This document shows, piece by piece, positions 41,910 to 44,510 of a stretch of 64,000 nt of DNA. The translations under genes and the position numbers were made by a program. How positions within the stretch are numbered: position 1 is the stretch's first letter; every line of letters begins with the position of its first letter. The stretch lies in the NCBI GenBank assembly GCA_022842625.1, contig JALHPG010000002.1, forward strand, positions 62,001 to 126,000, in the 5' to 3' direction. A model generated the notes under the pieces. The model was not told the origin of the DNA and did not search any database. It saw only the letters and a list, made by a program, of their open reading frames with translations. This stretch comes from Bacteroidia bacterium (lineage in GTDB: Bacteria; Bacteroidota; Bacteroidia; B-17B0; Aurantibacillaceae).

Positions 41910-42119
41910 TTATTTTTTTGTAGTATCTGCAACCGGTGTAGGAGCGGGAGCCGTCATTCCTTCTTCGGCTTCAGCAATTGCATCTTTTATAGATTTTGCG
42001 ATAGAATCCTGAACTTCTTTAGCTCTTTTGTGCATTGAGTCGCGACTTTCTGCAGCAGGACCGCAAGCTGTTTGTGCTAAAATAAAAACTAAACTAAAAA
42101 ATAAAATTGTGTTTTTCAT
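41910..42119 (-). CDS. Mini-lipoprotein, copy B
   Basis: A 69-residue protein from the ATG at 42119. Signal peptide with lipobox 'AQTACGPAAE' and then a short charged helix 'MHKRAKEVQDSIAKSIKDAI' and a Pro/Ala/Thr-rich end. It shares the layout 'ACGP-x-AE-(charged helix)-D-S-I-A' with the neighbouring 42360-42593 gene, so they are paralogs. No known domain. The track start at 42203 lies inside the repeat element and is too early. Confidence 0.65.
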   Translation of the reverse strand: MKNTILFFSLVFILAQTACGPAAESRDSMHKRAKEVQDSIAKSIKDAIAEAEEGMTAPAPTPVADTTKK

Positions 42120-42179
42120 ATGAATATAATTTATTGGCAAAGATAGAAAATAATAGCACTGAAAGAGCGTAGTAAATAA

Positions 42180-42281
42180 AGCCACAGATTTCGCAGATAA
42201 CACAGATTCCTTCTTTCTTAATATTATCGCTCTAAATTTATTTAAAATAATAAATCTGCGAGATCAGTGAAATCTGTGGCT
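42180..42281. repeat. Dispersed palindrome, AGCCACAGATTTCGC family (copy 2)
   Basis: Starts AGCCACAGATTTCGCAGATA and ends ATCAGTGAAATCTGTGGCT: the ends pair almost fully. Same family as 21638-21723, with a longer and different AT-rich centre. It lies between the two paralogous mini-lipoprotein genes. Confidence 0.78.
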
Positions 42282-42359: not shown

Positions 42360-42593
42360 TTAGTGGTGAGCTTCTGCAGCAGGAGCAGCAGTTTCAGTAG
42401 TTGCAGCAGCTGAATCAACTGGAGCAGCTTCTGGAGCAACTTCATTCATTGAAGCAGAGATTGCAGCAGCGATTGAATCAGCTACTTGTTTTGCTCTTTC
42501 TTCCATTTTAGCTTTTTCTTCAGCAGAAGGTCCACATGCTACGAAAGTTGTAGCGAATAATGCTACTGCGATAATTGAGAATACTTTTTTCAT
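42360..42593 (-). CDS. Mini-lipoprotein, copy A
   Basis: A 77-residue protein with lipobox 'TFVACGPSAE', a charged helix 'KAKMEERAKQVADSIAAAIS' and an Ala/Pro/Thr-rich tail ending in 'EAHH'. Paralog of the 41910-42119 gene: both have 'ACGP-x-AE', then '(K/R)-A-K-(Q/E)-V-x-D-S-I-A'. The well-placed terminator and simple, repetitive codon use (many GCA/GCT) suggest strong expression. Lpp-like abundant envelope peptides have this size, but homology is not claimed. Confidence 0.65.
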   Translation of the reverse strand: MKKVFSIIAVALFATTFVACGPSAEEKAKMEERAKQVADSIAAAISASMNEVAPEAAPVDSAAATTETAAPAAEAHH

Positions 42594-42729: not shown

Positions 42730-42790
42730 GGTTACCTCCGGTAATATTTAAATTCTATAAATATTTAATGGGCTAAAGGGTTACCTTTGG
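42730..42790 (+). promoter_or_regulatory. Promoter region of the sigma/protease pair with 12-bp direct repeat
   Basis: GGTTACCTCCGG (42730-42741) recurs as GGTTACCTTTGG (42779-42790), differing at two adjacent bases, 49 bases apart. The second copy contains TACCTTTG (42782-42789), an exact TAnnTTTG -7 element. The first copy is inside a palindrome TTACCTCCGGTAA. The sigma gene ATG follows at 42823. The arrangement could hold a site recognised by the encoded sigma factor; that is inference. Confidence 0.5.
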
Positions 42791-42822
42791 CAAAAAATCG
42801 TATTAATCCAAACAAGGCGTTT

Positions 42823-43413
42823 ATGTCAAGAAGCAAAGTGCAGTTTACCGAAGATCAATTTATTGATGGTTTGCGCACAGGAAATAATGAGGTATTAAGC
42901 GCTTTGTATAAAAAGTACTATAACATCGTTCTTAAATTTATTGTAAACAACAGTGGTACGCAAGAGGCGGCTCAAGACATTTACCAGGAAACAATAATTG
43001 TTTTATATGAAAATGTTCAAAAGCCCGGCTTCGAATTAAATTGTCAGCTGCAGACCTATATTTTTTCTATTGCAAAGCGTTTATGGCTAAAGCAACTCAA
43101 AAAAAGCAGTAAAACATTTTTGTTTAAAGAAGATGGCGAGAACGAATTGGTAGATGTGAGCGAAGAGATAACCGAACATTTAAACAAAGAAGTTGAACTT
43201 GAAAAATTAACTCAAAGCCTTACAGAACTTGGCGAACCTTGCGCCACCTTAATAAAAGATTTTTATGTGCAAAAATTAAGCATGGATGAAATAGCTGAAA
43301 AGTTTGGTTACACCAATGCCGACAATGCAAAAAATCAAAAATATAAATGTTTACAAAGATTAAAGAAATGTTTTTTTGAAATATTACCAGTTGAACAAAT
43401 AGAAAGAAAATGA
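42823..43413 (+). CDS. Sigma-70 family (ECF-like) RNA polymerase sigma factor
   Basis: A 196-residue alternative sigma factor. Region 2 spans about 25-90 ('EVLSALYKKYYNIVLKFIVNN' ... 'AAQDIYQETIIVLYENV' ... 'LQTYIFSIAKRLWLKQLKK'). Region 4 spans about 130-185 with the helix-turn-helix 'SMDEIAEKFGYTNADNAKNQKYKCLQRLKK'. Region 3 is missing, as expected for ECF. The track start (TTG at 42787) is on top of the -7 element, so I use the ATG at 42823. Its last codon overlaps the next gene (ATGA), which encodes an anti-sigma-like membrane protease. Confidence 0.88.
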   Translation: MSRSKVQFTEDQFIDGLRTGNNEVLSALYKKYYNIVLKFIVNNSGTQEAAQDIYQETIIVLYENVQKPGFELNCQLQTYIFSIAKRLWLKQLKKSSKTFLFKEDGENELVDVSEEITEHLNKEVELEKLTQSLTELGEPCATLIKDFYVQKLSMDEIAEKFGYTNADNAKNQKYKCLQRLKKCFFEILPVEQIERK

Positions 43414-44510
43414 GACCGATAGATTTATTTGAAAATTATTTAGATGGGAAGCTAAGTGCGGAAGAGATCGTAGCTTTTGAAACACAATTACGTTCTGATG
43501 CAATATTTGCAAATGCATTTGAACAACACAAAACCTTAATAGATGCTTTAAACAAAAGCGAAAAAAGGAATGCATTTAAAAACAAACTAAAAGCAATTCA
43601 CACACAAGCTTTTGGTAACGATGCCAAAATTGTTTCTATTAAAGAAGAAACAAACGCTAAGCGTTATTTTAAAGGCTTTGCTTACGCTGCCAGTGTTGCT
43701 GTTATTGCAGTTTTAAGTACGGTTGCAGTTTTAAGCACCGGTGGTTATTTACTAAAACAACAAAGCAATCAAATTACCAATTTAATGCGCGAAATGATCG
43801 ACTTAAAAGCTTCTAGTGAAGCGGTAAGTGAGGCCATTGTTGAAGGTATTACAAAAGGAAATCAAAAGGCGGTTTATGCCCCTGCAAACTTAGAAGGTAG
43901 TGCTTTCGCATTAAACAATAAAGGTTATATCATTACGAGTTCGCACATGGTTAATGGAGCTGATAGCGTTTTTGTTCAAAACGGTTCGTTAGAAAGAACC
44001 TTAACCGAAGTTGTATTAATTGACGCTAAATTAGATATTGCTATTTTAAAAATTGTAAATAAAGACGTGTCTAAGTCATGGGAAGTTCCATTTTCGTTTA
44101 GCGAAAAACCTACTGATATTGGTGAAAAAGTTTACACATTGGGTTACCCAAGAAAAGATATGGTTTATGGTGAAGGTTCTTTAAGTTCACTTAGCGGATA
44201 TTTTAACGATACTGCCATGTATCAGATCTCTATTCCGGTAAACCCCGGTAATAGTGGCGGACCATTATTGAACGATCAAGGAAATGTGATCGGCGTTATT
44301 AGAGGAAAAATTACAGGCGCGGAAGCAACCGGCTTTGCAGTAAAATCTAACGAAATATTTAAATCAATTTCTGCTCTTCCGGTGGATAGCACTAGAAATG
44401 ATCTAATGAATAAGCCTAAAAAACAAACCTTAAAAGGCTTAAAACGCACCGAACAGATCAAGCGCATAAATCCTTATGTGTTTAATGTTTTGGTTTATAA
44501 AAAGGATTAA
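43410..44510 (+). CDS. Membrane-bound S1C (HtrA-like) serine protease with anti-sigma-like N-terminus
   Basis: A 366-residue protein coupled to the sigma gene by a 4-base overlap. Residues 1-80 are helical, 'FENYLDGKLSAEEIVAFETQLRSD', like the cytoplasmic N-terminus of Bacteroidota anti-sigma factors, but without zinc ligands. One membrane helix lies at 88-113. A trypsin-like domain (about 155-325) follows outside the membrane with complete triad His179 ('TSSHMVNGA'), Asp209 ('DAKLDIAILKI') and Ser282 ('NPGNSGGPLL'). No PDZ domain is present, in contrast to DegS or HtrA. The context suggests it holds the sigma factor and responds to envelope stress; this is inference. Protease family is certain. 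Confidence 0.82.
   Translation: MRPIDLFENYLDGKLSAEEIVAFETQLRSDAIFANAFEQHKTLIDALNKSEKRNAFKNKLKAIHTQAFGNDAKIVSIKEETNAKRYFKGFAYAASVAVIAVLSTVAVLSTGGYLLKQQSNQITNLMREMIDLKASSEAVSEAIVEGITKGNQKAVYAPANLEGSAFALNNKGYIITSSHMVNGADSVFVQNGSLERTLTEVVLIDAKLDIAILKIVNKDVSKSWEVPFSFSEKPTDIGEKVYTLGYPRKDMVYGEGSLSSLSGYFNDTAMYQISIPVNPGNSGGPLLNDQGNVIGVIRGKITGAEATGFAVKSNEIFKSISALPVDSTRNDLMNKPKKQTLKGLKRTEQIKRINPYVFNVLVYKKD

Follow-up and report, generated by a model that had tools for sequence, protein, structure and literature searches.

A conserved pair of ECF sigma factor and adjoining anti-sigma/protease fusion forms a probable envelope-signalling module in Bacteroidota

An ECF-like sigma factor gene that overlaps a gene joining an anti-sigma-like segment, a membrane anchor and a serine protease raises the question of whether the two products form a signalling unit, and whether the protease takes part in releasing the sigma factor. 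The arrangement was noted in a preliminary description of the window, the whole stretch of 64,000 nucleotides analysed here. Both genes, the 366-residue length of the second and their ATGA overlap (43410-43413) were confirmed, and three features were added to that description, namely a folded C-terminal extension, a stalk that separates the protease from the membrane, and a divergent small lipoprotein with a like promoter.

The gene pair and its conservation

The pair and the parts of the fusion protein are laid out as follows.

42823..43413, plus strand: ECF-type sigma factor, 196 aa from ATG (Sigma70_r2, TIGR02937)
43410..44510, plus strand: anti-sigma/protease fusion protein, 366 aa
43410..43622, plus strand: anti-sigma domain (well supported), residues 1-71, helices 3-11, 17-29 and 31-71
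43653..43739, plus strand: membrane helix, residues 82-110, invariant Ala93-Ala94, positive side inward
43740..43883, plus strand: stalk, modelled with low confidence as a helical stretch (119-137) and a loop
43887..44372, plus strand: trypsin-like (chymotrypsin-fold) protease domain, residues 160-321, H179/D209/S282
44436..44501, plus strand: conserved C-terminal extension, residues 343-364, helix and strand

The first gene encodes a sigma-70 family protein with sigma2 and sigma4 regions only, which identifies it as an ECF factor by Pfam and NCBIfam (Sigma70_r2, 33.5 bits, cut-off 24; TIGR02937, 70.2 bits, cut-off 42.9). Two of its cysteines, Cys140 (GEPC) and Cys176 (KYKC), counted from ATG 42823, are near-invariant (271 and 270 of 273), which prompts one to ask whether they serve a structural or redox purpose.

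The preliminary description had left room for a chance neighbourhood and had suggested a search for adjacent homologous pairs. Co-occurrence proved near perfect, with the sigma gene directly upstream of the fusion in 324 of 327 homologous loci, a count of phylogenetically related loci and hence not of independent events, as are the counts below. Two of the three exceptions lie at a contig end and one is an ORF-extension artefact. Within the genus, the full-length fusion was present in 36/36 other genomes searched. For 39/39 full-length proteins, two of which belong to other families of the class, the sigma gene was found upstream. Scanning GTDB genomes yielded 487 relatives, the best 80 of which all have an upstream sigma gene, from hosts including Adhaeribacter, Pontibacter, Botryobacter, Rhodocytophaga, Mucilaginibacter and Daejeonella. 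In a sample of 296 genomes of the class, sigma orthologues (>=200 bits) were present in 52, full-length fusions in 51 and both in 50, the sole fusion lacking a sigma gene being located at a contig end. The pair is near-universal and single copy in two families (129/138 and 129/133 good genomes), the first of which is Sphingobacteriaceae, judged by proteins that are 70-83% identical to named ones from Mucilaginibacter and Daejeonella, while the second, comprising over 100 genera, is probably Chitinophagaceae. The adjacency of the two genes is beyond a chance neighbourhood. One locus (L017, genome G032) has a frameshifted sigma gene beside an open fusion gene, representing either a decaying system or an assembly error.

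Predicted promoter and regulon, and the divergent lipoprotein

Three further features lie upstream of the pair.

42778..42806, plus strand: predicted autoregulatory ECF promoter, -35 GGGTTAC, -10 GTATTAA
42628..42655, minus strand: degenerate copy of the sigma promoter upstream of the lipoprotein gene, GGTTACTATTTTTAAAAAAAGGGATAAA, 2 mismatches
42360..42593, minus strand: small divergent lipoprotein of 77 aa and low complexity with lipobox VACG, a predicted member of the regulon

The motif ahead of the sigma gene, GGGTTAC-N15-GTATTAA, is followed by the ATG about 16 nt further on. It was recovered in 114 of 118 distinct loci, compared with 0 of 114 control windows and none in shuffles, and in a larger set it stands ahead of the sigma gene at 262 of 272 loci, for which reason the sigma operon is probably autoregulated. 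A start of the long ORF at TTG 42787 was ruled out because this codon falls inside the conserved promoter; ATG 42823 is almost certainly the true sigma start. A 17-nt fold near the sigma start was uninformative.

Strict promoter scans gave about 44 matches in 37 relatives (1 for the reversed pattern), 63 matches in 41 Sphingobacteriaceae (0 in the control) and 36 matches in 41 genomes of the second family (0 in the control). A loose scan allowing two mismatches gave no excess over the reversed control, and the regulon was therefore built from strict patterns only. Its recurrent predicted targets are the sigma operon, the adjoining small divergent lipoprotein, a DUF4349 lipoprotein and a coiled-coil lipoprotein. 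The divergent lipoprotein, which in relatives has a median length of 71 aa and is rich in A, D, S, T, E, K, P and V, adjoins the sigma gene in 133 of 169 loci and has a GGTTAC-type promoter in 124 of these, versus 31/266 and 0 in control regions. In the window its degenerate promoter lies 34 nt from the ATG, a spacing shared with loci L227, L235 and L243.

A second small lipoprotein-like ORF (41910-42203, minus strand; CGPAAESRDSMHKRAKEVQDSIA) is akin to the divergent one and likely its tandem duplicate; no GGGTTAC promoter was seen ahead of this ORF. Elsewhere, in five loci belonging to one family (L500, L504, L511, L524 and L525), the sigma promoter motif stands ahead of small proteins that appear CBM48-like by eye (glycogen/isoamylase type), an unexpected cytosolic candidate for the regulon.

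Domains of the fusion protein

The N-terminal segment was assessed by family scans, fold comparison and coupling analysis. Among 97 diverse members, 54 matched the NCBIfam model NF052375, ‘anti-sigma factor’ (E<=0.1, best 5.8e-7), the next-ranked NCBIfam models were anti-sigma too, and zf-HC2 was the commonest Pfam match, found in 9; matches of single sequences mostly lie under the curated cut-offs. The window's own N-terminus scored 17.0 bits against NF052375 (cut-off 100) and reached no Pfam family at its cut-off. An AlphaFold2 model of residues 1-112 (pLDDT 85) was compared with the PDB using Foldseek, and nine of the ten matches (E<=10) were to the anti-sigma factors RslA, RsiW, MucA and PupR, mostly with an rmsd of 1.5-1.7 over 47-49 residues. 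None of these anti-sigma matches is individually significant (E 3.5-9.8), and their weight lies in the agreement among them. Searches of the N-terminus against the PDB with phmmer and profiles gave no informative match, and the nuclear-receptor helices that were matched in PDB searches were dismissed as chance. The zinc-binding HxxxCxxC motif of the ZAS subset is absent, and residues 1-85 of the window protein contain no cysteine. Class I anti-sigma domains (ASDIs) that do not bind zinc exist (PMC7406223), so that ASDI membership is still open to a zinc-free N-terminus.

Mean-field couplings were computed for 272 sigma/fusion pairs (Neff 212), with clade-wise permuted pairings as the control. 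The top 10 couplings to the sigma factor reached 0.954 for the anti-sigma domain (0.726 permuted) and 0.928 for the protease (0.826 permuted), and the columns of the membrane segment showed a coupling excess similar to that of the anti-sigma domain. Coupling as proof of binding was ruled out, given the modest excess over the clade permutations and the similar behaviour of the transmembrane columns. A class I domain consists of a helical bundle with a fourth helix and clasps both sigma2 and sigma4, a dual interface reported in PMC7406223. With helix blocks picked in view of this published interface, the top 50 domain-sigma pairs linked helix 1 preferentially to sigma4 and the distal helix preferentially to sigma2 (8:2 vs 5:11; Fisher p 0.02), a preference that fades by the top 80 pairs (Fisher p 0.17). 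The couplings thereby appear to reproduce the dual interface weakly.

The low scores of the window's own N-terminus, under every Pfam cut-off, and the weakness of the individual anti-sigma matches would suit a reading in which this segment is something other than an anti-sigma domain and the gene pair shares no more than an operon. We consider this highly improbable, as family scans, fold search, couplings and co-occurrence agree and related sigma genes adjoin proteins with a like N-terminus. The anti-sigma-like character that the preliminary description assigned to the segment is supported by the agreement of these lines, and the segment probably forms a class I-like anti-sigma domain.

Related sigma genes elsewhere are mostly followed by proteins with a like N-terminus, one helix and other ectodomains. 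This makes the family modular, with the protease as one choice of ectodomain on a shared anti-sigma base. No protease was recognised by eye among the ectodomains recovered beside related sigma genes in 20 loci. Three of the anti-sigma-like proteins adjoining related sigma genes (L460, L462 and L463) are about 655 aa long; with their CxxCH haem motif, those of L462 and L463 resemble anti-sigma factors with a cytochrome c ectodomain.

The single membrane helix of the fusion protein had been placed at residues 88-113; one helix it is, with its limits moved to about 82-110 in the AlphaFold2 model. It has positive charge on its N-terminal side, and Ala93-Ala94 (43686-43691), strictly invariant in 273/273 proteins, is a possible intramembrane cleavage or packing site. 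The stalk that follows is variable and shows no clear conserved cleavage motif; it would be the presumed site of any self-cleavage.

Residues 163-296 match Trypsin_2 strongly (6.3e-22). The residues His179 (codon 43944-43946), Asp209 (44034-44036) and Ser282 (44253-44255), named in the preliminary description, were located as such and are conserved without change in 273/273 distinct proteins, implying that catalysis is under selection; the fused protease is apparently catalytically competent and active. The earlier claim that anti-sigma segment, anchor and protease share one polypeptide is accordingly sustained. Sequence relatives of solved structure are of the DegP, MucD, DegS and HtrA types together with Rv3671c, and the fold of the protease matches Deg1, Rv3671c and DegS (without its PDZ). 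No PDZ domain was found in the fusion by Pfam, as previously described, so the label HtrA-like holds for fold and triad and fails for architecture. In place of a PDZ, the C-terminus forms a short helix-strand extension, modelled with good confidence by AlphaFold2 (helix 346-356, strand 357-363).

Protease and extension recur together in larger proteins with apparent signal peptides and no sigma gene. Their apparent signal peptides place the protease module outside the cytoplasm, and the extension shared with these secreted relatives belongs to the protease and not to signalling as such. The C-terminal tail had also been considered as a DegS-like activating peptide, an idea weakened by the comparable tail of these relatives. 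In L176-L192, secreted proteins have the same protease and C-terminal extension joined to MORN-like or other N-terminal parts.

Proposed mechanism and related systems

We propose that residues 1-71 would keep the partner sigma factor bound at the inner membrane and that the single helix would lead through the stalk to a competent protease outside, both steps being well supported. An envelope signal, such as misfolded or mislocalised protein or the loss of a lipoprotein substrate, may then activate the protease, which, acting as a site-1 protease built into the chain, could cut its own stalk or that of a neighbouring copy. A site-2 protease of the RseP type might subsequently cut within the membrane, an M50 homologue being encoded in the genome, and cytoplasmic proteases would free the sigma factor. 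As predicted from promoter sequences, the freed sigma would transcribe its own operon together with the adjoining small lipoprotein gene and a handful of further lipoprotein genes, and the newly made anti-sigma/protease and lipoprotein would reset the switch. The pairing of sigma and anti-sigma factor with autoregulation is, in our estimation, very probable. The full chain, a self-regulated ECF switch in which a membrane-anchored anti-sigma factor is cut by its own HtrA-like protease or that of a neighbouring copy, is tentative, its chances falling just short of even.

Invariance of the triad, an autoregulated operon that yields more protease and a stalk with no obvious conserved cut site are also what would be expected if the protease only sensed its substrate and did not cut itself, the substrate shifting the anti-sigma domain through stalk and helix while the regulon adds a quality-control protease. 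HtrA relatives are quality-control enzymes, which favours such a relay. For most single-pass anti-sigma factors that have been characterised, release is by cleavage and not in this manner, and the invariant Ala-Ala of the helix together with the M50 protease fits intramembrane cleavage better; we regard the relay as unlikely. Lower still we place the case in which a separate site-1 protease triggers release and the fused protease turns over the co-regulated lipoproteins, or degrades an activating ligand and so keeps the system off. Other HtrA-like proteases encoded in the genome and the small disordered lipoproteins co-regulated beside the sigma gene speak for it, while the protease/anti-sigma fusion is retained in every locus read, which is indicative of a linked function and makes this case decidedly unlikely. 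Self-cleavage by the fused protease could also be part of a broader scheme, a near-core Bacteroidota envelope-stress system in which the anti-sigma factor holds its own site-1 protease and the divergent lipoprotein, as substrate or inhibitor, reports the envelope state in a three-gene feedback loop; in this complete form it is rather unlikely.

The E. coli sigma-E system, RseA/DegS/RseP, likewise combines an ECF sigma, a single-pass anti-sigma factor, an outside serine protease of HtrA fold and an autoregulated promoter, and its site-2 protease has a homologue in the present genome. Unlike in that system, anti-sigma domain and protease are here on one chain, there is no PDZ and the promoter sequence is different. 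Within Bacteroidota, the closest layout is that of the Dma family, in which an N-terminal anti-sigma domain, transmembrane helix, tether and large C-terminal domain are encoded beside an ECF sigma, with an outer-membrane beta barrel in the place of the protease (PMC13088901). The RsgI/SEAL proteins of Clostridium and Bacillus are known self-cleaving anti-sigma factors, which use an autocleavage domain (PMC12203970); the present protein, which would likewise supply the first cleavage itself, has a full triad serine protease, in principle able to act in trans. The membrane serine protease family of MarP (Rv3671c) gives the protease domain its best NCBIfam match (92.4 bits, far under the cut-off of 250) and one of its top fold matches; the membrane part of MarP is unmatched, the corresponding region here being an anti-sigma domain and one helix.

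In the open-access literature, no description of an anti-sigma/protease fusion was found. The sigma factor, the anti-sigma/protease and the small lipoprotein under a like promoter make up a probable envelope-signalling module that is conserved and, as it appears, undescribed. In one survey, an ASDI protein was found near only 6% of Bacteroidetes ECF genes, compared with 32% across phyla (PMC7406223), so the control of Bacteroidota ECF factors is largely open. Against this background, the present pair is near-universal and single copy in two large families, with a small predicted regulon, and if the protease acts in cis, two steps of the textbook pathway would be merged in one protein. Cultured hosts of the pair include members of Mucilaginibacter, Pontibacter, Adhaeribacter and Daejeonella, and the predicted promoter makes reporter construction easy.
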